A stretch of 64,000 nucleotides of DNA from Alphaproteobacteria bacterium (GTDB taxonomy: Bacteria > Pseudomonadota > Alphaproteobacteria > Geminicoccales > Geminicoccaceae): NCBI GenBank assembly GCA_027045875.1, contig JALUAG010000049.1, positions 62,001-126,000 of the forward strand, in the 5' to 3' direction. Of the stretch, positions 2,668 through 38,436 are shown piece after piece. A program made the translations under genes and the position numbers. The notes beneath the pieces were generated by a model. The model was not told where the DNA came from and made no database searches. It saw nothing but the letters and a program-made list of their open reading frames with translations. Within the stretch, counting starts at the first letter, position 1, and the number at the start of each line of letters is the position of its first letter.

Positions 2668-4080
2668 TCAGCGGAAACGGGCGACGGCCGGCCGGCCGGA
2701 GGATCCCGCCTCCTCGCGGGCGAGATAGGTGGCCACCCGCAGCGCCGTCGCTTCGGCCTGGGCGACGCAGCAGCCGACGGACAGTCCGTTCAGGAAATTG
2801 CCGGTGACGAAGAGGCCCGGCTGGCGCTCGTCGAGGGTGGCGATCCGTTCCACCCGGCCGGCGTGACCGGGCAGGTACTGCGGCAGGCCGCGCGGCCAGC
2901 GGCGCACGCGCACCACCTGCGGCTCCCCCTCGGCGCCCAGGAGATCCGCGAGCTCCCTGCGGGCGATCGCCACCAGCTCCGCCTCCGGCAGCCGGGCGAG
3001 ATCCGGCGCCCGCGCGCCGCCGATGTAGGCCGCGAGCGCCACCGCGCCCTGCGGCGCGCGATGCGGGAACATGCTGGAGCAGAAGAGGATGCCGTTGACG
3101 GGACGCCTCTCGCGGCTCGCGGCGAGGCAGCCGACGCCGTCCAGCGGATGGGCCACGCGCCGGCGGGGAAACCCGGTGAACACCACCGCGAGTGGCGGCG
3201 CGGGGATGGCCAGGAGGGCGGTGCTCGCCGGCTCGTCCAGCCCTTCCAGGAGGGCGCCCGCCACATGGGGCTGGGTGGCGAGGACCAGGGCCCGCGCGCG
3301 GACCGTGCCCCGATCGCCGAGTTCGAGGCGGAACCCCCGGGCCGTGCGGCCGATGCGGCGCACCGCGACCCCGGTGCGCACGGCGTCGCCGAGCTCGGCG
3401 GCGAGCGCCCGCGGCAGGCTCGCCACCCCGTCGCGCCAGGAGAAGAGCCGGCGGCCGGGCATCGCCGATCCCGCGCGGCGTCGTGCCATCATCGCCCGGG
3501 TCACGGAGCCGTGACGCCGTTCGAGCTCGACGATGCGCGGAAAGGTGGCGGGCATCGACAGCTGGTGGCTGCAGCCGGCGAACAGACCGCCCACCAGCGG
3601 ATCGATCACTCCCTGCTCGAATTCCGGTCCGAAGCGCCGGCGCCAGAAGGCGGCCACCGTCTCCTCGCCGGCCTCCGGGCTCGCCGGCGGAACCAGGATC
3701 TCGGCCAGACTGCGCAACCGGCCCCGCCAGGACAGATACGAACTCACGAAGAGCCCCGCGGGGTGGAGGGGAATGGCCCGCAGCCGCCCGTCCTTCACGA
3801 GGTAGCGATGACGCACGGCGGCGGTGAGGCCGCATTCCTCGGAGGCGAGGCCGAGGGCGCGCGAAAGGGCCGGTGCGGCGGGCAGCATGGCGTTCACCGA
3901 ACTCGGCCCGTGCTCCATGAGAAAGCCGTCGATGCGCTCCGAGATCGCGTTGCCGCCGATGCGCACCTGGCGTTCCAGAACCGTCACCCGATAGCCGTGC
4001 CGCCGCAGCAGCCGTGCCGCGGTGAGGCCCGAGATGCCGGCACCGACGACGACGACGTCGCTCCGGGCGTCCGCCGTCAT
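2668..4080 (-). CDS. hemG: Protoporphyrinogen oxidase (HemG/HemY-type FAD enzyme)
   Basis: This 470-aa FAD flavoprotein belongs to the monoamine-oxidase-like PPOX family, which oxidises protoporphyrinogen IX (or coproporphyrinogen III) late in heme synthesis. The N-terminal dinucleotide-binding motif VVVVGAGISGLTAARLL is followed by an acidic strand end (VTVLER). The FAD-contacting EHGPSSVN segment and the C-terminal FVTGNFLNGLSVGCCV segment are also typical. Its ATG overlaps the stop of the radical SAM gene by four bases (ATGA), so the two are translationally coupled. The pairing with a radical SAM heme-type enzyme beside many cytochrome genes suggests cofactor supply for this locus. Whether it uses proto- or coproporphyrinogen cannot be decided here. 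Confidence 0.85.
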   Translation of the reverse strand: MTADARSDVVVVGAGISGLTAARLLRRHGYRVTVLERQVRIGGNAISERIDGFLMEHGPSSVNAMLPAAPALSRALGLASEECGLTAAVRHRYLVKDGRLRAIPLHPAGLFVSSYLSWRGRLRSLAEILVPPASPEAGEETVAAFWRRRFGPEFEQGVIDPLVGGLFAGCSHQLSMPATFPRIVELERRHGSVTRAMMARRRAGSAMPGRRLFSWRDGVASLPRALAAELGDAVRTGVAVRRIGRTARGFRLELGDRGTVRARALVLATQPHVAGALLEGLDEPASTALLAIPAPPLAVVFTGFPRRRVAHPLDGVGCLAASRERRPVNGILFCSSMFPHRAPQGAVALAAYIGGARAPDLARLPEAELVAIARRELADLLGAEGEPQVVRVRRWPRGLPQYLPGHAGRVERIATLDERQPGLFVTGNFLNGLSVGCCVAQAEATALRVATYLAREEAGSSGRPAVARFR

Positions 4081-5354
4081 CTCGGTCCCGGACGGCGGAA
4101 CGCCGCCGGCGGCCCGGCATCGCCGAAACGCCGGCGGGCCAGCCGCTCCAGATGCTCGACCCGCACCACCTCCTCGCCGAGCGCGCGGACGTGGTCCTCG
4201 GCCCGGCGGCGGACGAAGCGGCGGACGAAGCCGGGGACCCGGGCGAGCCGCCGCTCCGCTTCCGGGCTCCAGACCAGGGTGGGACCACGGTCACGCAGGG
4301 GTTCGACCGTCGCCCCGCCCCGCGGCCGGTAACCGCAGAGGAAATCCTCGCCCATGAGCTCGCCCGAGCGGGCGAGCGGGCGCGCCCGGCAGCCGCCGCA
4401 GAGGCGGGCGTATTCGCAGGCGCCGCAGCGGCCCTCGAGCTCGGGCTTCCGCAGCCGGCGGAACAGCGGCGCCTCGTTCCAGATGGTGGCGAAATCCCGC
4501 TCGCGCAGGGAGCCGGCCGAGAGCTCCATGTAGGGACAGGGGGTGATCTCCCCCGAAGGGGTGATCCGGCAGTAGCGGGTGCCGGCGAGGCAGCCGCCCG
4601 CCTCGTAGCCGTCGGCCAGGGTGACCGGCAGCGGCGGATCCGCCTCCATGGCGAGGCGCTTGAAATGCGGCGCGCAACGTACCCGCACCAGCAGTTCGGG
4701 TTCGTCGCGGGCGGCCGCCACGGCACGGGCCAGCACCCGGTCGTAGGTCTCGACCGAGATGTTGGTGACCTTCTGGCCGCGGCCGGTGCAGACGAGGAAG
4801 AAGAGGTTGAGGACCGCCGCCCCCACCTCCCGGGCGAAGGCGATCATCGAATCCAGCTCGCCCGCGTTGTCGTCGGTGACCGAAAAGTGGAGCTGGAAGG
4901 TGAGGCCGGCGCGCCGGCAGGCCTCGATGCCGGCCAGGGTGCGGGCGAAGGCACCGGGCAGGCCGCGGAAGGCGTCGTGGTGCTCGGGGTCCAGCGAGTC
5001 GAGACTGATGCCGACCGCCGCCACCCCGGCCTTTCTAAGGGCCGCCACCCGCCGCTCGGTGAGCAGCAGGCCGTTGGTGCCCACCACCACCATCAGGCCG
5101 AGCGCCGCCGCATGGGCGGCGATCTCGAGAAGATCGGCACGCAGCAGCGGTTCGCCGCCGGTGAGCACGATCATCGTCTCGTCGCTCAAGGCGGCGATCT
5201 GGTCGAGGAGATCCTTCACCTCTCCGGTGGACAGCTCCGCCGGATCGCCGGCCCGGCGCAGGCCGGCATCGAGATAGCAGTGCGCACATTCGAGGTTGCA
5301 GCGCCGGGTGAGGTTGAGGGCAACGAGGAACGGCGGATCGGCGACGGCCGTCAT
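4077..5354 (-). CDS. Radical SAM/SPASM protein (AhbD/NirJ-like) with C-terminal PCP_red-like domain
   Basis: The 425-aa product has the radical SAM cluster motif at C19/C23/C26 (CNLECAHCY) and the SAM-binding LTGGEPLLR. A Cys-rich SPASM region follows (GGCLAG, YCRITPSGEITPCPY, CGACEYARLCGGC, LCGY) that would hold auxiliary 4Fe-4S clusters. This layout resembles AhbC/AhbD and NirJ, which tailor heme or heme d1 precursors. Past residue 360 a short domain, PEAERRLARVPGFVRRFVRR, looks like the PCP_red domain of protochlorophyllide reductase subunits; the same unit occurs three times in the neighbouring UspA gene. It overlaps the hemG-like gene by four bases and lies seven bases after the UspA gene. 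A heme-biosynthetic role is inferred. A peptide-modifying SPASM enzyme is possible but no precursor peptide is seen. Confidence 0.78.
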   Translation of the reverse strand: MTAVADPPFLVALNLTRRCNLECAHCYLDAGLRRAGDPAELSTGEVKDLLDQIAALSDETMIVLTGGEPLLRADLLEIAAHAAALGLMVVVGTNGLLLTERRVAALRKAGVAAVGISLDSLDPEHHDAFRGLPGAFARTLAGIEACRRAGLTFQLHFSVTDDNAGELDSMIAFAREVGAAVLNLFFLVCTGRGQKVTNISVETYDRVLARAVAAARDEPELLVRVRCAPHFKRLAMEADPPLPVTLADGYEAGGCLAGTRYCRITPSGEITPCPYMELSAGSLRERDFATIWNEAPLFRRLRKPELEGRCGACEYARLCGGCRARPLARSGELMGEDFLCGYRPRGGATVEPLRDRGPTLVWSPEAERRLARVPGFVRRFVRRRAEDHVRALGEEVVRVEHLERLARRRFGDAGPPAAFRRPGPR

Positions 5355-5361
5355 CGCCCGC

Positions 5362-7014
5362 TCACGAATCTTCGGGCGCGGGGTGGCCGCCCTCCCGCAT
5401 CACCCGCTGCATGAGCTCGCGCGATTCGGCGATGCTCTCCTCAAGAAGCGCCAGATCGACCTCCGCGAGCTCGCGGTCGCGGGCCATCAGCTCGGTGCGC
5501 CGGCGCAGGCTCTCCCGCACCATCCCGGGCACCCGCGCGAGGCGGGCGAGGGCCGCCGCCTGCCAGTGCAGGGCCGGTGCGGTCTCGGTGTCGAGGAAGG
5601 GGCGGACATGCTCGACGGCGACCGTGTCGGCGCCCTCGCGGCGGGCCCGCTTCTCCGCCCGCAGGCGGATGCTGGCGCCGATCGCCGGGTCCCCCATCCG
5701 GTCCAGGAGGGCGGACGCCTCGGGCGACCAGGGCATCGCCTGCTGCTGCGCGTCCCGCCCGCCGAAATGGGGACAGAAGCGGGTCGTCGCCTCGTCGATC
5801 AGGGAGGCGGTGATCACCGTATGGCCGCGTTCCTGGGCGAGGCGCAGAATGGCGAGGCGCACCATGCCACGGGCGGTTTCGGGCACCCTGGCGAGTCGAT
5901 CCTCCGCCTCGCGGGTCCAGCTCACGGTCTTGCCCGCGAGGATGTCGAGGGGCGGCGTGAAGCGCGCCTCGCCGATCCACAGATGGCAGGGAGCGGCGAG
6001 CAGCAGGTTCTCGGTGGTGCCGCCGATGTCCAGTTCGGGATCGGCGTGGATGCCGGTCTTGCCGAGCAGCACGAGGCTCGCCCCCACCTCCTCGAGATAG
6101 GCCGCGATCACCCGGTGGGGCTTGCCGTCGAGCAGCCGGGTTTCGATCGTCGCATCCCGCGCCGCCGCCAGCTCCCGCGCGACGTCGAGGTGCGACTGGT
6201 AGATGCGGGCGATGCCGGCGTCGATGATCTGCTCGTGGAGCGCCTCCTGCTCCTTGAAGCGGAAGATCTCGCCCGCCTCCTCGCTGAGGCTGGCGGCGAT
6301 GCGGTTGAAGGCGACATAGTGGAAATAGGGGTCGTAGGCGGCCACCGCATGGACCGGCGCGTCCAGCCGGCGCCCGAGATCGAGGGCGGTCAGCAGGGCG
6401 CCGAAGGAGCGCGTGGAGCCGTCGAGGGCGACGACCAGCGGTCCGTCGCCGAGAGGCCGGTCCGGATCGCGGATCACCAGCACGTCGATCGGGCTGCGTC
6501 GCACCACCCGCCAGCAGACGGTGCCGACCGTGGTGCCGGGCACCGCTCCGAGACCCAGCACGCCCATCGCCAGCAGGTCGAAGGCGCCGCTCGCCGCCGC
6601 CTCCGACAGTCGGCGGTAATTCTTGCCCTCGGGGCTCAGGCGCCGGAAGGGCACCGCCGCCGCCTCGCACAGCTTGGCCGCATCGTCGTGGTAGCTGTCG
6701 CTGATGATGCCGAGACCGCGGGTGATGAGATCGTCGTGCACCACCCGCTGTCGTTCCAGCTCGTCCTCGTGGCGGTAGCGCTCCGGCAGTCCCCCTTCCA
6801 TCTGGCGGAAGCGCCGGTCGTGCAGCTTGGCGGCGTAGGCGTGGATGCCGGTCACCGTCCCGCCCGCCGAGGCGGCGAGCCGCACCGCCTCGGCGAGAGC
6901 GCGATTGGCGTGATCGGAAGCGTCGAGCGCTACCAGGATGCGCCGCAGGGAAACCGGCGCCGTGGCCGCGGTCTCGCTCGCGGGCGGGGTCAGGGGTCGT
7001 GTCTGCATGGCCAT
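5362..7014 (-). CDS. Tandem UspA protein with three PCP_red-like repeats
   Basis: The 550-aa product has two universal-stress-protein domains. The first covers about residues 22-165 (starting RRILVALDASDHANRAL), the second about 170-325 (starting LVVALDGSTRSFGALL, with the nucleotide-loop-like LLGKTGIH). About 200 residues of PCP_red-like repeats follow, beginning SWTREAEDRLARVPETARG, MPWSPEASALLDRMGD and LHWQAAALARLARVPGMVRE. No catalytic motif is visible. UspA domains usually bind ATP or AMP and act in stress signalling; PCP_red is a small helical domain first seen in protochlorophyllide reductase. Sharing it with the adjacent radical SAM protein suggests a common partner or cluster. The ATG at 7014 is preceded by a GGAGGAT seven bases upstream. 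The architecture is unusual and the function unknown. Confidence 0.75.
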   Translation of the reverse strand: MAMQTRPLTPPASETAATAPVSLRRILVALDASDHANRALAEAVRLAASAGGTVTGIHAYAAKLHDRRFRQMEGGLPERYRHEDELERQRVVHDDLITRGLGIISDSYHDDAAKLCEAAAVPFRRLSPEGKNYRRLSEAAASGAFDLLAMGVLGLGAVPGTTVGTVCWRVVRRSPIDVLVIRDPDRPLGDGPLVVALDGSTRSFGALLTALDLGRRLDAPVHAVAAYDPYFHYVAFNRIAASLSEEAGEIFRFKEQEALHEQIIDAGIARIYQSHLDVARELAAARDATIETRLLDGKPHRVIAAYLEEVGASLVLLGKTGIHADPELDIGGTTENLLLAAPCHLWIGEARFTPPLDILAGKTVSWTREAEDRLARVPETARGMVRLAILRLAQERGHTVITASLIDEATTRFCPHFGGRDAQQQAMPWSPEASALLDRMGDPAIGASIRLRAEKRARREGADTVAVEHVRPFLDTETAPALHWQAAALARLARVPGMVRESLRRRTELMARDRELAEVDLALLEESIAESRELMQRVMREGGHPAPEDS

Positions 7015-7047: not shown

Positions 7048-7797
7048 TCACGCCCTGCCGTCGTCCGTCGGCCGCACGCAGCGGAAGCCGAAGAACTCGG
7101 CGACGGTATCCGGATAGTCGAAGAGCCGCTCGTAGACCTTGGCCATGTGCGGCAGCCCCTGGAAATGCCCACCGCGCAGGAAGGCCCGGAAGTCGTCGTC
7201 GCCGATCTCGGTCGGGGTCGGGCAGATGCCGCTGCGGCAGGCCCCGCCGCCGACGAACATGTCCGCGACCCATTCGGAAACGTTGCCCGCCATGTCGTAG
7301 ACCCCGTAGGGGCTCACGTCGGCGGGATGGCTGCCGACCGGGGCCGGCAGCTCGCCCTCGAGATAGGCGAATTCCGGTGCGAAGCGGTCGCCCCAGGGAT
7401 AGAGACGGCCGTCGGTTCCGCGCGCCGCCTTCTCCCACTCCCGTTCGGTGGGCAAACGCTTGCCCTGCCAGCGGCAGTAGGCCTCGGCGTCGTCCCAGCT
7501 CACTCCGGTCACCGGCTGGTCCGGGCGGTTGAAATCCGGATCGTCGGCGAACATCGGCGGACGGTGCCCGGTGGCCCGCACGAAGGCCATGTATTCGGCG
7601 TTGGTAACCTCGAAGCGGTCGATCCAGAAGCCGTCGACGTCGACCACCGTCGGCCCCGGCATGGCGGTGGGCGAGGGGCCGCCGAGCGGGACCGGCCCGG
7701 GCGGCACGTAGACCATCCCGCCCGGTCCTGCGGAGGAGCCGCTGGTGCCGGCCGCCAGCAGGAGGAGCAGGGCGAATCGGAGCGGCCGCCCGGTCAT
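7048..7797 (-). CDS. SUMF1/FGE-like exported protein, catalytic Cys pair absent
   Basis: The product is 249 aa from the ATG at 7797. An N-terminal signal peptide (RFALLLLLAAGTSGSS) precedes a formylglycine-generating-enzyme fold with the usual landmarks EVTNAEYMAFV, PVTGVSWDDAEAYCRW, RLPTEREWEKAARG and GVYDMAGNVSEWV, ending in GFRCVRP. The region before GFRC lacks the active-site Cys pair of sulfatase-activating FGEs, so it is probably a binding or structural member like those in NosD/redox operons or TagR. The ATG overlaps the stop of the 38-aa membrane peptide (ATGA). An upstream TTG at 7809 is possible but less likely. The setting in the idr-linked operon suggests a periplasmic assembly or scaffold role (inferred). 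Confidence 0.82.
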   Translation of the reverse strand: MTGRPLRFALLLLLAAGTSGSSAGPGGMVYVPPGPVPLGGPSPTAMPGPTVVDVDGFWIDRFEVTNAEYMAFVRATGHRPPMFADDPDFNRPDQPVTGVSWDDAEAYCRWQGKRLPTEREWEKAARGTDGRLYPWGDRFAPEFAYLEGELPAPVGSHPADVSPYGVYDMAGNVSEWVADMFVGGGACRSGICPTPTEIGDDDFRAFLRGGHFQGLPHMAKVYERLFDYPDTVAEFFGFRCVRPTDDGRA

Positions 7798-13728: not shown

Positions 13729-14313
13729 CTAGCCTTTGAGATTGTCGTAGCGGCCGAAGATCAGCCCGAAGATGCCGACCGCGTAGATCTCGTCGCCTTC
13801 GAGCTCCAGCAGCACCTGGGGCAGGCTCTGGTAGGCCTGGCCGGAGATCAGGATGCCGTGACGGGTGAGGTCGTAGGTCGACAGATGCAGCGGGCAGGGC
13901 CCCAGGGATTTGGTGGCACCCCTGTAGGTCTCCTGCAGCGGGCCGCCCTGATGGGTGCAGGTATAGTTGAAGGCGACGACGTCGCGGTCGGGGCCGATGC
14001 CGCCGCCGGCGGGCACGCCGAGCTTGACCAGCATCGATTCCGCATAGGCCCCTTCGTCGGGATAGGTGAAGTCGACCGGCACGTCGACCTCGAGCTCGCT
14101 GAGCCTGGCGATGAACTTGCGCTCAAACACCGCCACCCGGGCCGGCGCCTTCTGGGCCAGCGCCGTGCCGGCGTTCAGCACCACCATGGTGGTGAAGGTG
14201 GTGGCTCCCGAGGTCAGCAGGAAATGACGGCGGGACATGGCGCAGGGAGCGTGTTCGCCGCCGGCCGTGCCGCGCTCCAGGTCCAGTCCGGGGTTTCGAT
14301 AGACGGTTGTCAT
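13729..14313 (-). CDS. idrB: Iodate reductase-like Rieske subunit IdrB (AioB family)
   Basis: The 194-aa Rieske 2Fe-2S protein has ligands C119-T-H121 (CTHQGG) and C140-x2-H143 (CPLH). It carries a twin-arginine signal (SRRHFLLTSG) followed by a hydrophobic stretch, so the folded heterodimer with the catalytic subunit should leave through Tat. It would pass electrons between the molybdenum subunit and periplasmic cytochrome c. I chose the ATG at 14313 because GAGGAA lies seven bases upstream. A second in-frame ATG at 14331 overlaps the stop of the preceding cytochrome gene (ATGA) and would add six residues. The idrA gene follows after 12 bases. As in AioB and IdrB, there is no transmembrane anchor after the signal. 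Confidence 0.85.
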   Translation of the reverse strand: MTTVYRNPGLDLERGTAGGEHAPCAMSRRHFLLTSGATTFTTMVVLNAGTALAQKAPARVAVFERKFIARLSELEVDVPVDFTYPDEGAYAESMLVKLGVPAGGGIGPDRDVVAFNYTCTHQGGPLQETYRGATKSLGPCPLHLSTYDLTRHGILISGQAYQSLPQVLLELEGDEIYAVGIFGLIFGRYDNLKG

Positions 14314-14327
14314 GACCGGTTCCTCGC

Positions 14328-15467
14328 TCATTCGGTGATCGCCGGCAGGGGCGCGTAATCGGGCAGCTTCGGAGGAGTGATCCGGATTTCCTCGCCGCTC
14401 AGCGATTCGAGGAACGCCACCAGATCCTCCACCTCCTCGTCGCTCAGCCCGAGCGGCTTGATGAGTTCGCTCTTGGTCTCCATGAACTCGTTCTCGCCGC
14501 CGCCGGCGTTGTAGAACTCGACCACCTCCTGGAGATCCCAGAGCGCGCCGTTGTGCATGTAGGGGGCGGTGTAGAGGGTGTAGCGCAGCGGTGCGGTGCG
14601 GAACTTGCCCTTGTCCTTCGGATTCTTGGTCCGGTAGTAGAGACCCGCATCGTCCTTGATCGAGCGGTACATCTCCTCCGTCACGCCCTTGGCGTACTGT
14701 TCGTAGCGGAAGGTGACCTGGGCGAGCCCGTCCTCCTCCCAGCGCTCCGCCGGGGGCACGCCGATGTTGTAGTACTTCTGGTCGGTCAGCAGCGCCCCGT
14801 TGTGGCACTGGATGCAGCCGGCCTTGCCCTGGAACAGCTCCAGCCCGCGCACCTGCTGTTCGGTGAGCGCGTTCTTGTTGCCCCGCATGTACTGGTCGAA
14901 GGGCGTGTCGTTGTGGATCAGCGTCCGCTCGAAGGCGGCGATCGCCCGCCAGGCGTTGCCGATGGTCGGCCACGGATCACCGAAGATCTCGCGGAACAGG
15001 CGACGGTATTCGGGGATGAAGGCGAGGCGCGCTTCCATCATGTCGCTCTCGCCGTTGCCGGCCACCGCGCCCTTGGCCGCGCTCGCCGCCTGCGCCTCCA
15101 GCGACTTCGAGGCGCCGGCCCAGAACAGCTTGCCGAGATAGGCGGCGTTCACCACCGTCTGGCTGTTCCGCCAGTGGACGGTTCCCGGATAGCCGCGTGA
15201 GAAGTCGTCGGAGAACGCCCAGCCCTGCGCAGCCTCGTGACAGCTCGAGCAGGCGATCGAGGCATCGCCGCCGAGGCGGGGGTCGAAGAACAGCATCTTG
15301 CCCAGTTCGACCTTCTCCGGTGTCTGCGGATTGTCGGCCGGGATGGGCGGAGGGCCGAGCGCCGCCAGGGGCGGGAAGTCCTCGCCCGCGAGGGCCGGCG
15401 GCTCGGGCTGCAGCAGGGCGATGAGGGCCGCCGCCGAGAGAAGGAAGGTGGTCTTGCGCGTGATCAT
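14328..15467 (-). CDS. idrP1: Diheme cytochrome c peroxidase-like protein (IdrP1/IdrP2 type)
   Basis: The 379-aa exported protein (signal MITRKTTFLLSAAALIALL) belongs to the MauG/cytochrome c peroxidase family. It has two covalent heme sites, CSSCH (about residue 76) and CIQCH (about residue 218), plus the family motifs GKMLFFDPRLGGD, LFQGKAGCIQCHNG and TAPYMHNG. Iodate reductase loci encode two such proteins, proposed to remove H2O2 or a reactive iodine intermediate formed during iodate reduction. It lies ten bases after its paralogue and abuts idrB. Which copy corresponds to P1 and which to P2 cannot be settled without alignment. A stand-alone H2O2 peroxidase is the alternative, but position in the operon argues for the Idr role. 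Confidence 0.8.
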   Translation of the reverse strand: MITRKTTFLLSAAALIALLQPEPPALAGEDFPPLAALGPPPIPADNPQTPEKVELGKMLFFDPRLGGDASIACSSCHEAAQGWAFSDDFSRGYPGTVHWRNSQTVVNAAYLGKLFWAGASKSLEAQAASAAKGAVAGNGESDMMEARLAFIPEYRRLFREIFGDPWPTIGNAWRAIAAFERTLIHNDTPFDQYMRGNKNALTEQQVRGLELFQGKAGCIQCHNGALLTDQKYYNIGVPPAERWEEDGLAQVTFRYEQYAKGVTEEMYRSIKDDAGLYYRTKNPKDKGKFRTAPLRYTLYTAPYMHNGALWDLQEVVEFYNAGGGENEFMETKSELIKPLGLSDEEVEDLVAFLESLSGEEIRITPPKLPDYAPLPAITE

Positions 15468-15477
15468 CGCTCGGCTC

Positions 15478-16593
15478 CTAGTTCGGGGTGTTCCGCCAGT
15501 CCTCGATCGCCTCGTATTCGGTCGGGATCGGCTCGCTCCACACGAACTCCGGTCCGTCGAGCGGGTCCCCGGAAAGCGCCATCAGGAAGGCCACGAGATC
15601 GATCTGCTCCTGGGTGGAAAGTCCGAGGGGCCGGATGGCGGGATCCTTGTTGGGATCGGTGCCGCCGCCGGCGTTGTAGAAGGCGACCACTTCCTCGAGC
15701 GTCTTGAACACGCCGTTGTGCATGTAGGGCGCCGTGTACTTGAGCTCGCGCAGACTCGGCGTCATGAACTTGCCGATGTCGGAGCCGTCGGCCTTGTGGG
15801 TCTGCACGTGGGCGCCGACGTCGCGGCGGATGTTCATGTAGTTCTCGACGCCCATGAACTTCGCGTAGGCCACGTAGGTGACGTGCCGCAGGGGATTGCG
15901 GAAGACGTCGAGATTCTCCGGCACTCCCAGATTGTGCGCCTGCTGGTCGGTGAACAGCGGGCCGCTGTGGCACTGGGCGCAGCCCGCCTTGCCCTTGAAC
16001 AGCTCGAAACCGCGCTTCGCCGAATCCGACATCCGGCCGGTGTCGAAGGGCGCGTTCCGCGAGGTCAGGGTCTTGAGATACTCGGGGATCGCCTTGCGGG
16101 CGCCGCCGTTGCTGGGCTCGCCCAGCCCGGCCTTTTCGAACATCTCGACGTAGACCGGATCCTGCTTGAGGCGCTCCTGCATCAACCTCATGTCCATGTT
16201 CATGAAGTAGCTTTCCGTGATCATCTCACGGGTGACGTCGTTGAGGTTGGTGCCGATGCGGCCGTCGTGGAACCAGATCCGCTTGTAGGCGGTATTGATC
16301 AGCGTCGGTGTGTTGCGGAAGCCGTCCGAGCCCGGATAGGCGGGCGAGAGGGGGAGATTGTTGGCGTAACCGTACTGCGGCTGGTGACAGCTCGCGCAGC
16401 TCAGCGCCGCGTCCCCGGAAAGGCGCTTGTCGAAGAACAAGCGCTTGCCGAGCTCGGCGCGGGCCGCGTTCACCTCCAGCGGCTCGAGAGGGCCGAATTC
16501 CTGGGCGGCCACGGCGGTCGCCCCCACCGCCATGCTCGCGACCAGTGCCAGCGCGAAACTTCGCGGCAGGTTGACGGGGCGCCTTGCTTTCAT
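15478..16593 (-). CDS. idrP2: Diheme cytochrome c peroxidase-like protein (IdrP2/IdrP1 type)
   Basis: The 371-aa periplasmic diheme protein has a signal peptide (FALALVASMAVGATAVAAQ) and CxxCH sites CASCH and CAQCH. Family motifs are GKRLFFDKRLSGD, FKGKAGCAQCHSG and TAPYMHNGVFKTLEEVV. It is a diverged paralogue of the next gene and is the first gene of the idr set, preceded by a 157-base intergenic region with an FNR-type palindrome 108 bases upstream of the start. The ATG at 16593 has GGAGG in the expected window. The proposed job is detoxifying peroxide or hypoiodous acid released by the reductase, using electrons from cytochrome c. The P1/P2 naming is provisional. Confidence 0.8.
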   Translation of the reverse strand: MKARRPVNLPRSFALALVASMAVGATAVAAQEFGPLEPLEVNAARAELGKRLFFDKRLSGDAALSCASCHQPQYGYANNLPLSPAYPGSDGFRNTPTLINTAYKRIWFHDGRIGTNLNDVTREMITESYFMNMDMRLMQERLKQDPVYVEMFEKAGLGEPSNGGARKAIPEYLKTLTSRNAPFDTGRMSDSAKRGFELFKGKAGCAQCHSGPLFTDQQAHNLGVPENLDVFRNPLRHVTYVAYAKFMGVENYMNIRRDVGAHVQTHKADGSDIGKFMTPSLRELKYTAPYMHNGVFKTLEEVVAFYNAGGGTDPNKDPAIRPLGLSTQEQIDLVAFLMALSGDPLDGPEFVWSEPIPTEYEAIEDWRNTPN

Positions 16594-16750: not shown

Positions 16751-19054
16751 TCAGCGGTCGCGATCGTCGAAACGACGCCGTTGCGCGCGCACGCCGGCAA
16801 GGAAGAGGAGGCCGGCCAGCAGCCCGGCGAGACCGCTCGTGCCATAGAGACGGATCGGGTCCTCCTCCGGCTCCAGCAGCAGCCAGTACCAGCCGGTCAG
16901 GGTGTGGCGACTGCCCTGCTGGCCGTCCCAGCCGTCCCAGTTGGCGAAGGCCACCGGGATGTAGCGCCCCGCCTCGAAACGGATGTCGCGCCCGTCCGCG
17001 GTCTCCAGAGGCCGGCGGAAGACGACCCGCCACTGCCCGTCCGACCATTCGCCGCGGACCCGCAGCGCGCTGCTGTCGTCGCGCGGGCTCGGCGGACCGT
17101 CGGGGCCGCGGGCATCGAGGATCAGCCCCTCCTCCGGCGCCGGCGGTTCGATGGAGGGGGCGCGCCAGTACCAGATGTTGACCGGGTTCTTGGGGTCGCC
17201 GTGGCGGAACCAGGGCTTTTCGCTGGTGGTCGGGATGGTGGTCGGGAACTGCACGGCCACCGCGTCACGAGTGGGTTCCACCCCGTCCCGACGATACTGC
17301 TTCTCGAGCGGGTCGCCGGGCACCGAGTAGGTGCGGTCGTCGACATCGAGGCGCATTGCCATCGCCTCGGCATTGAACAGCACCCGCACCGTCACCCGGT
17401 CGTTGAGGGAGTGGAAGAGACGCGGTTCCTTGATGACGTTGGGCAGCAGCGCGAAGGTGACGGCCGGCGCCTCCTCCCAGGCGGGATCGTCCGGATCCTC
17501 GGGCAGCGGGCCGTCGATGCGCAGCCCGCGCACCACCGTCTCGCCGGCGCTCAGCGGCACCGCCTTGTCGCGCAGGGTCATCACGTAGTTGGCGATGTCC
17601 CAGCGCTGCCGCTCGCTCATCTCCGTCGTGTGCTCGGGCATCGGCGTGCCGCGGATGCCCGTGCTGATGCGCTGGAACACGTCCTCGGCGTCCTTGGTCC
17701 AGCGCCAGGTCGAGGGGCGGGTCAGATTGCGCGGCCAGATGCGGTCGCCCCAGTCGTCCTTGAGCTTCTTGCCGGAGGTGACGTTGCCGCGGCCTTCCGC
17801 GCCGTGGCACTGCACGCAGGCCTTCTCGAACAGCTCGCGGCCGCGGGCCAGGGAAGCGGCGTCGGGCTCGACCCGCTCACCGAGTTCGATGGGCGCGAGA
17901 CCGAGATCCTCCGGCGTGTCCTCGTCCCACTCGCCGAACTCCTTGATGAGCCGCACGAGCGCGTCGATCTCGGGTTCCTTGAGGCGCTTGCCCCATCCCG
18001 GCATGGCGGTCCCCGGCAGGCCCTCGCGGATCGTCTTCTTGAGATCCTCGTCGTAGGGGAACTCGGAATCGGCGTGGGTGGTCTTGTACTTGAAGACGCC
18101 GAGGGTGAAGTCGCGCGGCTTGGGGTAGAGGAACTCGGCCACCGGCCCCTGACCGTCGCCCTCCCGGCCGTGGCACTGGGCGCAGTAGGTGAGATAGAGC
18201 TCTTCGGCCCGCTCCCGGCTCACCTCGCCGGCGGCCGCCTCGCCCGACGGTACCGGATCCGGCTGCGGCGTTTCCTCCACCGCCCCGGTCTCGGCCAGCT
18301 CCCAGGAACGGGGTTCGAAACCGGTGTAGTCGTAGAGGAACAGGATCGCCTTCCAGACCTCTTCCTCGTCGAGCATCTCCTCCCAGACGGGCATCGCCGA
18401 CAGCCAGGGGGCGCCTTCCCGCGGCAGCCCGGGGCCGCCCGTGGTGATCCGCCAGAAGACGTAGGATTCCTGGAGCTGGGCGATGGTGCCGACGTCCCGG
18501 AAGTTGGCCGGCTGCGGGTTGAAGCCGTAGGCGAAGACGCCGTCGCCGTCGAGATCGTCGCCGTGACAGTAAAGGCAGTTCTTGTAGTAGATCTCGGCCC
18601 CCTCGGCGACCAGGGCACGGTAGCCCTCGCTGCCCTTGGGGTTGTCCTCGCGCAGCGGATTCCGGAGTTCCACGAGATTGAAGGTCTTGTCGTAGATGCG
18701 GATGGTGGTGGGCGGTGCCGGGTGCACCGAACGCAGTTCCACCGGCGCCTCGAAGCTCGGCTTGGCCCAGGAGTAGGCCAGCGAGGCGCTGCCCCCGACC
18801 ACGAGCAGCAGGGCCAGGAGACGCAGCCAGCGCAGGCGCGGATGCCCCAGCAGCAGGCGGAAGGGTTCGACGAGCCGCTCGTAGGTGACGTCGTCGAAGG
18901 TGGCCACCATCAGCACGCCGATGACCGTGAAGACCATGAACTGCAACAGCAGCGAGCGCGGCATCGGCGGCTGGAGGCCGTAGGCGAAAAAGGCGTACAG
19001 GGCGAGAATGACCACCACCACCCAGAGCAGGGGATGGGTAACGACGCGTCTCAC
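16751..19054 (-). CDS. Membrane triheme cytochrome c with ethylbenzene-dehydrogenase-type heme b domain
   Basis: The 767-aa product starts with three membrane helices (residues about 8-27, 36-52, 77-95). It then has three c-heme sites: CLYCH near 160, CAQCH near 289 and CVQCH near 410. From about residue 495 a beta-rich domain (VRGLRIDGPLPEDPDDPAW through WDGWDGQQGSRHTLTGWYW) resembles the gamma subunit of ethylbenzene/DMS dehydrogenases, which holds one heme b. A last helix anchors the C-terminus. This fusion would carry electrons at the periplasmic face between a respiratory enzyme and the bd-like subunit. Its start overlaps the stop of the upstream diheme cytochrome gene by four bases. The domain order is uncommon; similar parts occur in nitrite-oxidiser and chlorate/DMS respiratory loci. 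Confidence 0.8.
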   Translation of the reverse strand: MRRVVTHPLLWVVVVILALYAFFAYGLQPPMPRSLLLQFMVFTVIGVLMVATFDDVTYERLVEPFRLLLGHPRLRWLRLLALLLVVGGSASLAYSWAKPSFEAPVELRSVHPAPPTTIRIYDKTFNLVELRNPLREDNPKGSEGYRALVAEGAEIYYKNCLYCHGDDLDGDGVFAYGFNPQPANFRDVGTIAQLQESYVFWRITTGGPGLPREGAPWLSAMPVWEEMLDEEEVWKAILFLYDYTGFEPRSWELAETGAVEETPQPDPVPSGEAAAGEVSRERAEELYLTYCAQCHGREGDGQGPVAEFLYPKPRDFTLGVFKYKTTHADSEFPYDEDLKKTIREGLPGTAMPGWGKRLKEPEIDALVRLIKEFGEWDEDTPEDLGLAPIELGERVEPDAASLARGRELFEKACVQCHGAEGRGNVTSGKKLKDDWGDRIWPRNLTRPSTWRWTKDAEDVFQRISTGIRGTPMPEHTTEMSERQRWDIANYVMTLRDKAVPLSAGETVVRGLRIDGPLPEDPDDPAWEEAPAVTFALLPNVIKEPRLFHSLNDRVTVRVLFNAEAMAMRLDVDDRTYSVPGDPLEKQYRRDGVEPTRDAVAVQFPTTIPTTSEKPWFRHGDPKNPVNIWYWRAPSIEPPAPEEGLILDARGPDGPPSPRDDSSALRVRGEWSDGQWRVVFRRPLETADGRDIRFEAGRYIPVAFANWDGWDGQQGSRHTLTGWYWLLLEPEEDPIRLYGTSGLAGLLAGLLFLAGVRAQRRRFDDRDR

Positions 19055-19899
19055 GGCTTGGGCTCCCCGCCGTCGAGGCCAGCCAGGTAGTCGAGCAGGA
19101 TCTCCAGTTCGCTGGCACGCATCTGTTCACCGAAGTCACCCGGCATCAGCCCGGGCTCGTAGCCCGGCGCGACCTCGGCGTCGGGATCGAGGATGGCGCG
19201 GCGCAGTGCCTCGCGGTCGAGCCGGGCGCCGATGCCCGCGAGCGGCGGTCCGAGATCGGCACCCGAACCGTCGAGATCGTGACAGGCGGCGCAGCCGTAG
19301 CGGTCGATCACCTCCTCGGGAGTCGTGGCCGGTGCCTCCTCCTCCCCATCGGCGCCGGCCTCGGCCGCCGCCGTCGTCCCGGCGGCGGGCAGGGGAACGG
19401 TGATCTCGACCCCCGCCCGATCCTGGAGAAAGGCGATCAGGGCGTCGATCTCCGTCGGCGTCAGCGAGATGGGTGGGACGTCCACCCTGGGCATCGGGCT
19501 CTCGCGATCCTGCGTCCCCTTCTTGCCGAAGCCGGGCACCACGTAGACCGAGGGCTCGAGCATCGATTCCCGCAGATAGACCTCGAACGCCTCCGCCTCC
19601 TCGAGCCCCTTGGCGGCTCCGGTGTAGCGGGGATCCTCGATCCGGCTGCGCAGCTCCTCGGCGAGATCCATGGCCAGCATGTCGGGGGCGCGGCCCAGCT
19701 TGTTGTGGCACAGGGTGCAGGTGCCCTTGCCCGAGAACAGCCGTTCGCCCCAGGCGATCTGGCCGGCGCGATCGAGACTGCCGAGCTCGATCTCCTCCTC
19801 GGCCGGCGGGTTGGACTGCACCTGCGGCAGGATGTTGGCGAAAAGGGTGTAGGCCAGGAGCACCGCCAGGCTGAACAGGGTGACGCGCAGGAAGGTCAT
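19051..19899 (-). CDS. Membrane-anchored diheme cytochrome c
   Basis: The 282-aa product has an uncleaved N-terminal helix (FLRVTLFSLAVLLAYTLFA) and two c-heme sites, CTLCH at residue 61 and CAACH near residue 205. They sit in two cytochrome c domains separated by an Ala/Glu-rich linker. Probable axial Met residues are in SPMPRVDVPP and GLMPGDFGE. It overlaps the genes on both sides by four bases, giving an oxidase-cytochrome-cytochrome unit. It likely relays electrons to or from the bd-like subunit, which lacks a recognisable quinol site. The exact partner is not known. Confidence 0.82.
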   Translation of the reverse strand: MTFLRVTLFSLAVLLAYTLFANILPQVQSNPPAEEEIELGSLDRAGQIAWGERLFSGKGTCTLCHNKLGRAPDMLAMDLAEELRSRIEDPRYTGAAKGLEEAEAFEVYLRESMLEPSVYVVPGFGKKGTQDRESPMPRVDVPPISLTPTEIDALIAFLQDRAGVEITVPLPAAGTTAAAEAGADGEEEAPATTPEEVIDRYGCAACHDLDGSGADLGPPLAGIGARLDREALRRAILDPDAEVAPGYEPGLMPGDFGEQMRASELEILLDYLAGLDGGEPKP

Positions 19900-21650
19900 C
19901 GGCCGCCCTCCGCAGCCGGCGCCTGCTGGCGGGTGTCACCCACCTGGCTGAGCCAGAAGATGAACACGATCACCGCCATGAAGACGAGGGTGATCACGGT
20001 GATGAAATTGCCCGCCTCGCCGATGGTCGGGATGTAGGCGTCGGGAGAGCGGTCCTTCATGATGGTGTAGACGTGCCAGTAGGTGCGGACCGAGCTGCGG
20101 ATGTAGCCCATCAGCGCCATCAGCCAGGTGAAGGCCACCGGCAGCACGAACAGGGCGTACTGCGAACGTGTCGACATCCGTCCCCACGCCACCGGCCGGG
20201 TGACCGCGCCCCGGTACATGAAGGCCTCGATCACCAGGGCGAAGACGATCACCGCCAGGGTGGAGAGCACCTGCGGCACCGAGGCGCCGACCTTGTAGAC
20301 GGTGGGCGTGACATAGCCGTAGATGCCGGCACCGACGATGTTGAGCGTCGCCGCCAGATAGAGAGCGGCGATCACGCAGTTCCCGATCCAGGCCCAGGGC
20401 ACGGTGGGGGTGCGGCTCGCGCGCCGGAACAGCTGGAAGGAAAGGAAGGTGGCGAGCAGCATCATGTTCACGGCGGTGTTCTTGGCCGGCATGATGCCGA
20501 GGGGACCGAGGAGGGGATGGTTGGTGCCGCCGATGGCCAGCACCTCCTGCGGCGTGAGAATCAGGGTGTGCGGGGTCACCCAGACGAGGAATCCGGCCAC
20601 CAGCACGGCGGCGATGTACTTGACCCAGGGCACGAACCGGCGTCCGCCCTCGGTGCGCATCAGGCCGCACCACAGATAGTAGTTGGCGGCCAGCAAGATG
20701 GAGCCGATCAGCACCGCCTGGATGATGAACAGCCAGGCCAGGACGCCGCCCATGGCGGTGATCCCCATCTGCTGGCTGTAGGCGTAGATCTCGGCCATCA
20801 GCCAGTAGCCGGCGAAGGGCAGGGGCAGGAAGCCGAGGATGGCGATGAAGTTGGCGGTGTAGCCCATCCAGTCGTAATGGGCCCGTTCCTCGGCGGTGCG
20901 GGCGGCGAGGAACCGGTAGGCGGCGTAGGCGCCGACGATGGCCCCGCCGTAGGCGATGTTGGCGAGGAAGCGGTGGAGGTTGAGCGGGTTCCAGAGCGGG
21001 CCCTGCATCGCCGCCCACACCGACCCCAGGGGAGTCCCCGCCTCGTCGACGCCGGAAGGCGCCATCATGAAGGTGGCCCAGGCGTTGGCGACGAACATCA
21101 GCGTGGTGCCCACGGCGTTGAGCAGCACGCCGATCGACAGGTGGATCCATTTGCGGTCACCGTAGCGCAGGGCGTTCCAGGTGTAGAAATAGACGTAGAG
21201 CAGCAGGCTCTCGAGGATGAACAGGAGGGCGTAGATGAGGACCTGGCCGTCGAATACCCGGAGCAGATAGCCCATCAGCACCGGATAGAAGAGGAACAGG
21301 GCGAGGGCCAGGGCGCCGCCGGTGAGGGCGGTGAAGGCATAGGCCGCCATCGAGATCTTCATGAACTCGTGGGCCATGCGATCGTAGCGCTCGTCCCGGG
21401 TCAGCACCCCGGTGAGCTCGATCGCCACCACGAACATCGGCACGGCGAGCACGAAGGCGGCCAGAAAGAGGTGCATCTGGGCCAGCGCCCACACCACCGG
21501 CCGACCGGTCATGCCGGCGATGCGAGGATAGTCGGCGGCGGTGGGGGAGGGTGCCGGGGCACCCGGATCTTCCGCCGCGAGGCCGAAATGAGGCAGGACG
21601 ACGGCGAGACCGACGGCCGCCAGTCCGCAGAGGAGGAGCCGCCACTTCAT
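19896..21650 (-). CDS. Cytochrome bd-like oxidase subunit I (CydA-like)
   Basis: The 584-aa polytopic membrane protein resembles cytochrome bd subunit I. It begins with a signal-like segment, then a helix with a candidate heme ligand His60 (ALAQMHLFLAA) and a second His in NPLNLHRFLANIAYGG. More than ten further helices follow. The quinol-binding Q-loop motif GRQPW of true CydA is not seen, and no CydB gene is adjacent. Instead the gene is fused by overlap to two c-type cytochrome genes. This matches the bd-like oxidases described in nitrite-oxidising bacteria, proposed to take electrons from cytochrome c. ATG at 21650 overlaps the stop of a 42-aa membrane peptide. Substrate (O2 or otherwise) is not proven by sequence. 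Confidence 0.78.
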   Translation of the reverse strand: MKWRLLLCGLAAVGLAVVLPHFGLAAEDPGAPAPSPTAADYPRIAGMTGRPVVWALAQMHLFLAAFVLAVPMFVVAIELTGVLTRDERYDRMAHEFMKISMAAYAFTALTGGALALALFLFYPVLMGYLLRVFDGQVLIYALLFILESLLLYVYFYTWNALRYGDRKWIHLSIGVLLNAVGTTLMFVANAWATFMMAPSGVDEAGTPLGSVWAAMQGPLWNPLNLHRFLANIAYGGAIVGAYAAYRFLAARTAEERAHYDWMGYTANFIAILGFLPLPFAGYWLMAEIYAYSQQMGITAMGGVLAWLFIIQAVLIGSILLAANYYLWCGLMRTEGGRRFVPWVKYIAAVLVAGFLVWVTPHTLILTPQEVLAIGGTNHPLLGPLGIMPAKNTAVNMMLLATFLSFQLFRRASRTPTVPWAWIGNCVIAALYLAATLNIVGAGIYGYVTPTVYKVGASVPQVLSTLAVIVFALVIEAFMYRGAVTRPVAWGRMSTRSQYALFVLPVAFTWLMALMGYIRSSVRTYWHVYTIMKDRSPDAYIPTIGEAGNFITVITLVFMAVIVFIFWLSQVGDTRQQAPAAEGGR

Positions 21651-21775
21651 GACAGTGGCATCAGGTTCCAGCCGACCGGCAGGCCTTGCGCCGTCATGAC
21701 GAGCCAGTCGACAGCATAGAAGAACACCGCCCAGCCCGCGAAGGCGAGCAGGAACACCAGGGCCCGGGCCGCCAT
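21647..21775 (-). CDS. 42-aa single-span membrane peptide
   Basis: A short frame with ATG at 21775 and a GGGGAG ribosome site six bases upstream encodes 42 residues. These comprise one hydrophobic helix (LVFLLAFAGWAVFFYAVDWL) and a short polar tail ending NLMPLS. Its stop overlaps the start of the bd-like subunit by four bases. Small one-helix subunits such as CydX or CcoQ stabilise terminal oxidases. This could be an equivalent for the bd-like protein, but no family is recognised. Confidence 0.6.
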   Translation of the reverse strand: MAARALVFLLAFAGWAVFFYAVDWLVMTAQGLPVGWNLMPLS

Positions 21776-21787
21776 TCGTCACTCCCC

Positions 21788-21916
21788 TCAGCCTTCCATA
21801 CCGGCCGGTACCCCGTGCCGGTAGATCAGGAACCACCAGAAGAAGACCAGCACGGCCGCCAGCGTCGCGGCGAAGATCCACGGGCCGATCCGTGCCGGCC
21901 GGCGGGGGTCGGTCAT
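21788..21916 (-). CDS. 42-aa single-span membrane peptide
   Basis: ATG at 21916 opens a 42-residue frame with a basic, Pro-rich start (MTDPRRPARIGP), one helix (WIFAATLAAVLVFFWWFLIY) and a short tail. It lies 12 bases before the second small membrane peptide and 37 bases after the 99-aa gene. Size and placement suggest a small oxidase or cytochrome-complex subunit. The call rests on the good helix, the codon pattern and operon spacing, not on homology. Confidence 0.55.
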   Translation of the reverse strand: MTDPRRPARIGPWIFAATLAAVLVFFWWFLIYRHGVPAGMEG

Positions 21917-21953
21917 GACGCGTTCCTCCCCTCCGGTGGTCCGCCGACCGCGC

Positions 21954-22253
21954 TCACGAACAGCGCTCGGCGATCGCCTGCCGGAGCCGGTCGAGATAGG
22001 CCGTCTCGGGTTCCTCCGGTCGCGGGGGCACGAGGTAGAGCAGCCTGGCGGCGATCGCGTAGCCGCGGGTGGGCTCCTCGCCGGCCGGCCGGCGCTCGCG
22101 CAGTACGCGGGCCACCCGCTCCAGGGTCTCTTCGCGCGTCTCGCAGTAGCGCGGCAGGGTCACCCGGTCGGCATACCATTCGGCGGCCGCGAACAGTCCC
22201 CGCAGCAACAGGAACACGGTCAGCAGAACGACGACGACGCGCAAACCCGACAT
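21954..22253 (-). CDS. Hypothetical membrane-anchored protein (99 aa)
   Basis: The product has one N-terminal helix (LRVVVVLLTVFLLLRGLFAAA) followed by a charged, helical domain of about 75 residues with two Cys (PRYCETREETLERV and AERCS at the C-terminus) that could form a disulfide in the periplasm. I chose ATG at 22253; the frame could start further upstream at 22322, but that extension is basic and unlike a membrane protein N-terminus. It is the first gene of the bd-like/cytochrome operon and lies about 94 bases from an FNR-type palindrome. No family recognised. Confidence 0.62.
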   Translation of the reverse strand: MSGLRVVVVLLTVFLLLRGLFAAAEWYADRVTLPRYCETREETLERVARVLRERRPAGEEPTRGYAIAARLLYLVPPRPEEPETAYLDRLRQAIAERCS

Positions 22254-22428: not shown

Positions 22429-22503
22429 TGGCTGGGGCGGCAGGATTCGAACCTGCGAATGCTGGAACCAAAATCCAGTGCCTTACCACTTGGCGACGCC
22501 CCA
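22429..22503 (-). tRNA. tRNA-Gln (anticodon UUG)
   Basis: The minus strand folds as a standard 75-base tRNA. The 7-bp acceptor stem pairs TGGGGCG with CGCCCCA. The D arm includes AAGTGGTAAGGC, and the anticodon stem CTGGA/TCCAG encloses a loop with TTG. The T arm is GCAGGTTCGAATCCTGC, with discriminator G followed by an encoded CCA. It decodes CAA. Its 3' end faces the bd-like/idr gene block, a common insertion point for genomic islands. Confidence 0.95.
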
Positions 22504-36697: not shown

Positions 36698-36728
36698 ACC
36701 GACCAACAACGGGCAAAGGAGAACCGCA

Positions 36729-37838
36729 ATGACCCGAAAGACGTTCCTGGCTTCTCTGGTGGGGGCGCTGGCCGGCTCCGCGCTGGGGTTCGCCGCCGCG
36801 GCCGCCGCGCCGGCGGACGAGATCTACGTCCCGCTCGGCGGGGCCGGCAAGGTGCTCGTGGTCGATGCCGCGAGCGACCGGGCCGTGGGCACGATCGAAG
36901 GCCTGCCGGCCGCGCACGGGCTCGCCGCCACGCCCGACGGCCGCTTTCTGGTGGTCGGCAGCTTCAGCGAGCGCGAGCCCGGCTCCGCGCCGCCCAAGCC
37001 CGAGGGCATGAGCCAGGAGGAGCATGCCGCGCATCACGGCATGGCCGGCATGGACATGAAGAAGAGGGGCGAGGGCGCCGGCAAGATGGCGATGGACGGC
37101 GCGAAGCCGATCAGCACGGTGTCGGTGGTCGACCTCGCAAAGCGCGAGGTGGTGCGGCGCATCGACGTGCCGGGGGCCGTACATCACGTGGCGGTGAGCC
37201 CGGACGGCCGCTTCGCGGTGGTCACCCAGCCCAACGCCGGTACGGTGTCGGTGATCGATCTCTCGAACTTCTCCCTCGTCGCCACGGTGCCGACAGGCCC
37301 GCTTCCCAACTACGCCGCCTTCGCCCCCGACGGCGGCCGGGTCTTCGTCAGCAGCGCCGGTTCCGACCGGGTGGTGGAGATCGCGACCGGCGACTGGAAG
37401 GTCGCGCGCGCGATCGAGACCGGCGCCGGCCCCGAGCATCTGGTGATCGATGCCCAGGGGGCGCGCCTCTACGTCGTCAACAACGGTGACGGCACGGTGG
37501 GCGAGATCGACCTCGCGGCGGGCAAGCGGCTGCGGGCGATTCCCGTCGGAGAGGTGCTCCACGGCATCGATCTCGGCGACGACGGACGCAGGCTGTTCGT
37601 GGCGGTCATGGGCGAGAACAAGCTCACCGCCTACGATCTCGTGACCGGCACCTTCCGCAGCACCGAACTCGCTTCGGGGCCGTTCCACGTGATGGCCGTC
37701 CGCGGCCGCGGCAAGCTCTACGTCTCGAGTGCCGAGGAACCGAGGATCTGGGCGATCGATCAGAAGACCCTCGAGCTTCGTGGCGAGATCCCGATCGAGG
37801 GCAAGGGGCACCAGATGGCCCAGCAGCTTGGCTCGTGA
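36729..37838 (+). CDS. Exported YncE/YVTN-type beta-propeller with His/Met-rich insert
   Basis: The 369-aa product has a signal peptide (SLVGALAGSALGFAAAAAAPA) and about six or seven beta-propeller blades (for example VSPDGRFAVVTQPNAGTVSV and LYVVNNGDGTVGEIDLAAG). After the second blade there is a roughly 45-residue insert rich in His and Met (MSQEEHAAHHGMAGMDMKK) that resembles periplasmic copper-binding segments. It follows copB by 31 bases with a strong AAGGAG site. Propellers of this type act as periplasmic binding or scaffold proteins. Copper binding is inferred from the insert and the neighbours. Confidence 0.82.
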   Translation: MTRKTFLASLVGALAGSALGFAAAAAAPADEIYVPLGGAGKVLVVDAASDRAVGTIEGLPAAHGLAATPDGRFLVVGSFSEREPGSAPPKPEGMSQEEHAAHHGMAGMDMKKRGEGAGKMAMDGAKPISTVSVVDLAKREVVRRIDVPGAVHHVAVSPDGRFAVVTQPNAGTVSVIDLSNFSLVATVPTGPLPNYAAFAPDGGRVFVSSAGSDRVVEIATGDWKVARAIETGAGPEHLVIDAQGARLYVVNNGDGTVGEIDLAAGKRLRAIPVGEVLHGIDLGDDGRRLFVAVMGENKLTAYDLVTGTFRSTELASGPFHVMAVRGRGKLYVSSAEEPRIWAIDQKTLELRGEIPIEGKGHQMAQQLGS

Positions 37839-37858
37839 CTACCGGAAGGAGGGAGACG

Positions 37859-38389
37859 ATGAAGCGTTGTCGCCGTTTCACATGGTCCGCGATCGTCGCC
37901 GCCAGCCTGCTGCCGGCGGCCAGCGCCAATGCCGCGCAGCACGGGGCCGCGACGGAGCCGGAGCCCGCGGCCGACCCGGCACCCGAGGTCCTCATGCTGA
38001 TGCCGCTCATGAATCCCGAGCGCGGGCGCAAGCTGTTCGCCAGCAAGGGCTGCGTGGTCTGCCACGCCGTCAACGGCGTGGGCGGCGAGGACGCACCGCC
38101 GCTCGATTTCGACAGCACCAACGCCTACATGAACCCTTTCGACTTCGCCGCCCGCATGTGGGCCGGCGCCGAGGCGATGATCTACCTGCAGCAGGAAGAG
38201 CTGGGCGAGCAGATCGAGCTCACCGGGCAGGAGCTCGCCGACATCATCGCCTTCACCCACAGCCCCTCGCAGCAGTCGAGATTCTCGATGGCGGACGTTC
38301 CGCCGCGCATCCAGGACATGATGCATCACCGCGGCGAGGACGAGGAAGAAGGGGAGAAGCACGAGGAGGATCACGTCGAGGGCGACTGA
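37859..38389 (+). CDS. Exported monoheme cytochrome c
   Basis: The 176-aa product has a signal peptide (TWSAIVAASLLPAASANA) and one cytochrome c site in GCVVCHAVNGVGG. Candidate axial Met residues are in NAYMNPFDFAARMWAG. The C-terminus is strongly acidic with His (HHRGEDEEEGEKHEEDHVEGD region). AGGAGGGA precedes the ATG at 37859. It lies between the propeller and the Rieske gene, so it may exchange electrons with the latter. Confidence 0.85.
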   Translation: MKRCRRFTWSAIVAASLLPAASANAAQHGAATEPEPAADPAPEVLMLMPLMNPERGRKLFASKGCVVCHAVNGVGGEDAPPLDFDSTNAYMNPFDFAARMWAGAEAMIYLQQEELGEQIELTGQELADIIAFTHSPSQQSRFSMADVPPRIQDMMHHRGEDEEEGEKHEEDHVEGD

Positions 38390-38436
38390 CCGGCAGCCCT
38401 GCCGGGTCCGGTCGCGGCGCGAGAGGAGGATCGGCG

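Follow-up and report, generated by a model that had tools for sequence, protein, structure and literature searches.

A 64,000-nt stretch of a Geminicoccaceae genome (Alphaproteobacteria; hereafter the window) carries a block of genes for a CydA-like membrane protein, two 42-aa membrane peptides (micro-subunits A and B) and two multiheme c-type cytochromes, followed by the genes of a predicted iodate reductase, IdrAB, and of a predicted blue-copper protein (Table 1). Judged from its sequence, the CydA-like protein is a member of the bd-like OR-N group and not a new oxidase type. OR-N proteins are numerous in nitrite oxidisers; excerpts of two papers describe their make-up and function (PMC10839748), and likewise their O2 affinity (PMC12342949), as being without experimental proof. 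Our explanation of the whole block, to which we give about an even chance, is that it encodes a quinol-independent OR-N complex that would be fed by c-type and copper carriers, would probably reduce O2 and would share its carriers with IdrAB. Directly established are which genes the block holds, the family to which the CydA-like protein belongs, the loss of its quinol site, how widely the micro-subunits are conserved and that the block is associated with IdrA; newly seen here are the compact one-CydA variant, the family-wide tiny peptides, the idr association and, within the block, a pair of porphyrin-type enzymes and a conserved blue-copper protein.

Relatives were collected by scanning a species-genome collection and keeping the best 80 of 553, and the clade counts below refer to near relatives of the window's CydA-like protein. 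A one-CydA set (S) comprises 55 loci near the window from Alpha- and Gammaproteobacteria, including Sedimenticola, Ca. Thiodiazotropha, Chromatiales and a tubeworm symbiont. A two-CydA set (D), which has an additional longer CydA' (~700 aa), comes from Rhodospirillaceae, Acidiferrobacteraceae, Arenicellales and others. In a 97-row tree, obtained by a quick search with 35 of the 55 S loci and with some long Nitrospirota branches, the window falls together with the S rows at a support of 99 (Shimodaira-Hasegawa-like approximate likelihood ratio test), the D rows and CydA' each have a support of 100, and every bd-like row stands apart from quinol-type CydA. Bd-like matches also occur in 59 of 148 Nitrospirota genomes, many of which hold multiple copies. 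Together with the Nitrospirota loci and the tree, these matches bear out the kinship with bd-like proteins of nitrite oxidisers that had been proposed from the letters of the window (the sequence-only reading). A search with PF01654 returned exactly one protein in 22 of 26 S genomes, a sample chosen partly for idr genes at their loci, which argues that the S-type core has no CydA' partner. The window's own genome (99.9% complete) holds a single PF01654 protein, ruling out a CydAA' heteromer there. In plasmid records, nothing matched the CydA-like protein of the window, and no match covered 80% of its triheme protein. A possible mixed arrangement was seen in one genome (G777, locus L017), with three CydA-family matches, two of them on a contig that also holds IdrA.

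The structure model of the CydA-like protein (predicted local distance difference test (pLDDT) score 82, predicted template modelling score 0.84) matches the CydA chains of solved cytochromes bd with Z scores of 30-32 over 347-359 residues, and its sequence profile likewise matches CydA. Proteins of alternative complex III (ActC/ActF) match the same helices more weakly (VIA Z 17-21, well under the CydA match) and, unlike in that complex, none of the block proteins scanned was identified as an Act protein. The GRQPW motif of E. coli CydA is absent from the window's protein, and the place of the Q-loop is taken by extra helices at residues 303-330, 340-358, 387-412, 420-447 and 450-478; helices likewise stand in this place in the Nitrospina bd-like protein, as described in an excerpt of PMC3578206. 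Across 35 S rows (E. coli CydA numbering), two further quinol-site residues are replaced, Lys252 mostly by Leu and Glu257 by Tyr or Phe, and the equivalents of His19 and Glu107 are each kept in all 35. No family match to CydB (PF02322) was found in the window's own genome, in a search that recovered CydB from 10 of 14 known genomes as a control. A quinol bd oxidase is ruled out by the absence of GRQPW and of CydB. Compared with quinol cytochrome bd (CydABX), the complex thus shares the CydA fold and the His19 and Glu107 equivalents, but not GRQPW, Lys252/Glu257 or CydB, and it has two different micro-subunits as well as c-type partners. The sequence-only reading had proposed a non-quinol, cytochrome c-linked bd-like complex, and this is well supported by the missing Q-loop residues, the helices in their stead, the lack of CydB and the constant presence of c-type partners described below; that neither a normal quinol site nor a CydB encoded elsewhere was found also favours it.

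The genes for the diheme cytochrome c and for the triheme cytochrome c/EB_dh protein are each present in all 42 S loci whose downstream sequence covers 3.5 kb or more. The diheme cytochrome is found in Nitrospirota loci as well, where the counterpart of the triheme/EB_dh protein is two separate genes. Three hydrophobic segments at the N-terminus of the triheme protein are joined to three CXXCH motifs and an EB_dh part (PF09459, 64 bits against a cut-off of 33.3). The proposed fusion stands, but the heme b that had been assigned to this domain is doubtful, since its Gln602 aligns with the Met of EbdC and NxrC that we take to be a heme ligand in EB_dh/NxrC subunits. Gln occupies this position in 47 of 47 S rows and in 31 of the 32 D and other rows with a letter there. 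In the window, 4-base overlaps join micro-subunit B to the CydA-like gene (21647-21650), the latter to the diheme gene (19896-19899) and this to the triheme gene (19051-19054); the overlaps, the tiny membrane peptides, the CydA-like protein without GRQPW and the two cytochrome genes, all listed in the sequence-only reading, were confirmed by coordinates and profile matches. The block runs on past position 16751 on the same strand, through MauG1, MauG2, IdrB, IdrA and a HEAT-repeat protein to the blue-copper protein at about 7919. Its order is kept in genome G002, with 91% identity for the CydA-like protein, and in G031, from another family, with 73% for the CydA-like protein and 56-58% for the tiny peptides, which suggests that the arrangement is more than chance.

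Both micro-subunits extend well beyond the S set. Hidden Markov models trained on S rows alone matched micro-subunit A at 52 of 55 S loci and beside 51 of 85 other bd-like genes, and micro-subunit B at 53 of 55 and 57 of 85, respectively; at the same threshold, none of 3757 control open reading frames (ORFs; reversed, downstream and shuffled) was matched. For both models the matches among other bd-like genes include Nitrospirota and D loci, and none was assigned to genes treated as CydA'. The likeliest reading of the two peptides is that they are micro-subunits which accompany the bd-like core throughout the family.

The 245-aa protein at the end of the block is a predicted blue-copper carrier. 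In its model (pLDDT 92), residues 98-192 match plastocyanins (Z 12) and amicyanin (Z about 10.5), and His135, Cys178, His181 and Met184 are kept in 57, 56, 57 and 56 of 57 rows. The blue-copper domain is set inside a carboxypeptidase-regulatory-like sandwich and is conserved along with the bd-like block. Cupredoxin-like proteins are also reported, in the excerpt of PMC3578206, from the bd-like clusters of nitrite oxidisers. In comparison with the OR-N proteins of Nitrospirota and Nitrospinota, the CydA-like core, the lack of quinol residues, the helices replacing the Q-loop, the two micro-subunits (in the Nitrospirota loci examined) and the neighbouring mono- and diheme cytochromes c, EB_dh/NxrC-like proteins and cupredoxins are shared; what differs here is the single CydA-like gene without CydA', the fusion of cytochrome c with EB_dh and the partner, IdrAB instead of nitrite oxidoreductase.

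As to this partner, a small tree that uses AioA as the outgroup places the window's IdrA on the Idr side, split from AioA at 100. It is 29% identical to AioA of NT-25 and Thermus, 50% to the IdrA of Azonexus and 66% to that of Vibrio, the Azonexus and Vibrio loci standing in here for proven IdrA sequences. At one position where AioA keeps Glu, all 35 Idr-type rows have Ser, Ala or Asp. The window thus combines an Idr-side, AioA-related molybdenum subunit with IdrB and a pair of diheme peroxidases, in the order P, P, B, A of Azonexus and Vibrio, and these genes encode a predicted iodate reductase; an arsenite oxidase (AioAB) is ruled out by the tree and by the two adjacent peroxidases. Unlike known idrABP1P2 loci, the window adds bd-like, copper and porphyrin-enzyme genes. 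Poor conservation around idrABP1P2 is described in an excerpt of Reyes-Umana et al. (PMC8692401), the text of which does not contain the term 'cytochrome bd'. A literature search did not find the link between bd-like and idr genes or the micro-subunits, most subscription journals being outside its reach, so that absence from print is not implied.

An IdrA-type protein (E <1e-100) is encoded in 46 of 50 S genomes (the 55 S loci minus L023, L035, L046, L049 and L056) and in 17 of the 24 D and other genomes searched, L067 lying outside the search. In the 29 S loci where the downstream sequence reaches 9.9 kb or more, IdrA is present in 17 and MauG1 in 21 within the stretch examined. The association recurs in an even class sample of 385 genomes, a count independent of the choice of the 80 loci, in which 11 genomes have bd-like genes (E <1e-30, with the weak matches in G308 and G344 dropped), 12 have IdrA and 7 have both. 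IdrA is thus found in 7 of 11 genomes with bd-like genes and in 5 of 374 others (Fisher p 1e-9), or in 6 of 10 and 5 of 374 when the window's own genome is removed (p 2e-8). Four class genomes (G155, G216, G225 and G315) have IdrA and CydA' on one contig within a few kb. That an iodate reductase adjoins the bd-like genes had already been remarked for the window, and the link has become stronger with these counts.

In the explanation that we favour, the CydA-like protein and the two one-helix micro-subunits would form the membrane core, a heme wire in the periplasm would be built from the anchored diheme cytochrome and the triheme c/EB_dh protein, and the soluble carrier would be the blue-copper protein. 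Since the core lacks the known quinol site, its sequence suggests that electrons would enter from periplasmic carriers. Reduction of O2 would be the likeliest terminal reaction, as proposed in print for OR-N. The same carriers may feed periplasmic IdrAB, in which case electrons would be split between O2 and iodate; alternatively, their sharing could serve to hold O2 and peroxide low beside the iodate reductase.

Several observations weigh against this explanation. By residue comparison, the active site of the CydA-like protein is far from that of cytochrome bd: in nearly all bd-like rows Glu99 is replaced by Tyr and Glu445 by Ser, Gly or Ala (Ser in S), His186 is Ala in S rows and Ala or Gly across bd-like rows, and Met393 is without a partner in bd-like rows. 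With these residues changed or absent, we infer O2 reduction from the family. An invariant His226 lies one turn ahead of the His186 position. The window's own genome has three heme-copper oxidase matches, so that no oxidase is missing from it. The triheme gene and MauG1 are separated by a 157-base gap, in which promoter and terminator scans gave no decisive signal, so that a single transcript would be no more than possible. IdrA is absent from 4 of the 50 S genomes and not nearby in 12 of the 29 long-flank S loci, and five class genomes hold IdrA without bd-like genes. The Idr set is also found on plasmids of Vibrio and Azonexus, where the stretches examined contain no bd-like genes.

The loss of two canonical active-site Glu residues and the co-occurrence with IdrA would also suit a complex that is no oxidase and serves as the membrane electron supply of IdrAB, taking electrons from quinol at a non-bd site and passing them through the c hemes and copper to iodate. 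In the excerpted sources, the Denitromonas idr cluster is without a quinone oxidoreductase (PMC8692401) and a complex III-like role has been offered for the Nitrospina bd-like protein (PMC3578206). We nevertheless consider such a supply unlikely: there is no identifiable quinol site, a pure conduit would have no obvious need for the equivalents of His19 and Glu107 that are invariant in the S clade, and bd-like genes occur in genomes without IdrA (e.g. G771, G798, G801 and G802). The existence of genomes with one block and not the other, and the excerpted description of Idr loci as a transferable island (PMC8692401), could further mean that the bd-like and idr blocks merely travel together and have no common function. 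The pairing is, however, seen in Alpha- and Gammaproteobacteria, with one-CydA and two-CydA arrangements and differing gene orders, and in large excess in the even class sample, making mere co-travel very improbable.

In a different division of labour, the Idr-like enzyme would act as an oxidase on iodide, arsenite or some other periplasmic substrate, with O2 receiving the electrons by way of the bd-like complex; such a route has been proposed for nitrite oxidoreductase in nitrite oxidisers. IdrA is related to arsenite oxidase, and a periplasmic molybdenum enzyme, a bd-like complex and cupredoxins are also paired in nitrite oxidisers (excerpt of PMC3578206). The gene set with its two diheme peroxidases is, however, that of iodate reducers, and the Glu of AioA is replaced throughout the Idr-type rows, which leaves this division only a small chance. 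The iodate/iodide pair has a high potential, which disfavours iodide as the substrate.

Beyond the blue-copper gene, the block holds two porphyrin-type enzymes, for which the S-locus counts in Table 1 refer to loci with a long upstream flank. The radical SAM/SPASM protein scores 313 and 309 bits against AhbD and NirJ2, with the NCBIfam cut-off of 500 not reached, and is also found in 11 of 19 D loci. The protoporphyrinogen-oxidase-like protein, which is of the flavin adenine dinucleotide (FAD) type, is likely an extra enzyme, as the genome has a HemJ-family match elsewhere. The pair suggests a dedicated porphyrin step. A more speculative extension, which we think improbable as a whole, is that the altered active site of the bd-like complex holds a non-standard porphyrin supplied by these enzymes, that the two micro-subunits replace CydB, and that the complex is a dedicated membrane partner of the iodate reductase via the blue-copper carrier.

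The one-CydA form in Proteobacteria, which include a named strain, Sedimenticola hydrogenitrophicus (L065), would allow OR-N to be studied outside slow-growing nitrifiers, and its association with idrA makes it a candidate for the membrane partner that iodate respiration may use. In a purified OR-N complex, specific features to look for would be the two micro-subunits and the involvement of the porphyrin enzymes. Because many marine bacteria have the bd-like genes in a single block with those of a predicted iodate reductase, there is a way to probe this poorly understood oxidase-like family.

Table 1 Genes of the block in transcription order, all on the minus strand (window coordinates; TM, transmembrane)
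Feature	Coordinates	Strand	Evidence
p99, 99-aa protein, one N-terminal TM segment	21954..22253	-	
Micro-subunit A, 42 aa, one TM segment	21788..21916	-	
Micro-subunit B, 42 aa, one TM segment, conserved QGLP-type end	21647..21775	-	
CydA-like (OR-N-type) membrane protein, 584 aa	19896..21650	-	PF01654, 60 bits (cut-off 26.2)
Membrane-anchored diheme cytochrome c	19051..19899	-	CXXCH at 61 and 203
Triheme cytochrome c/EB_dh fusion, 767 aa, GTG start	16751..19054	-	CXXCH at 160, 291 and 413
IdrP-like diheme peroxidase, MauG/CCP family (MauG1)	15478..16593	-	PF03150
Second IdrP-like diheme peroxidase (MauG2)	14328..15467	-	PF03150
IdrB/AioB-like Rieske subunit	13729..14331	-	TIGR02694 over cut-off; PF00355
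IdrA/AioA-like molybdopterin catalytic subunit, 890 aa	11044..13716	-	TIGR02693 over cut-off; Idr side of tree
HEAT-repeat protein, 774 aa	8673..10997	-	PF13646; 35/38 S-clade loci
Predicted type-1 blue-copper protein, 245 aa	7919..8656	-	Ligand residues and structure model
Universal-stress protein with PCP_red domains, recurrent neighbour	5362..6885	-	33/38 S-clade loci
Radical SAM/SPASM protein near AhbD/NirJ2	4077..5354	-	Below both cut-offs; 31/38 S-clade loci
Protoporphyrinogen-oxidase-like FAD protein	2668..4080	-	TIGR00562, 262 bits (cut-off 97.85); 29/38 S-clade loci

The composition of the block varies at some points. Among the 38 S loci that have a long upstream flank, p99 is found in 19, at varying positions within the block, and was not found in the G031 stretch examined. 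In three gammaproteobacterial loci, L037 (14858-15622), L042 (14959-15552) and L063 (15022-15621), an ORF that is presumably SCO1-like, a name given from its sequence, lies between the triheme gene and MauG1. A tRNA-Gln at 22429-22503, just upstream of the block in the window, is a possible integration site. Beside the block, positions 7048-7716 encode a protein with a formylglycine-generating enzyme (FGE)-sulfatase domain, and related ORFs lie near a bd-like pair of Nitrospirota in L157. On the contig of the window, ~17 kb ahead of its start, there is a match to a heme-copper oxidase (L011, G000:C49:40000-59500). Finally, at 34718-38979 a P-type ATPase, a beta-propeller protein with weak similarity to a cytochrome d1 domain, a c-type cytochrome and a Rieske protein are encoded in a row.

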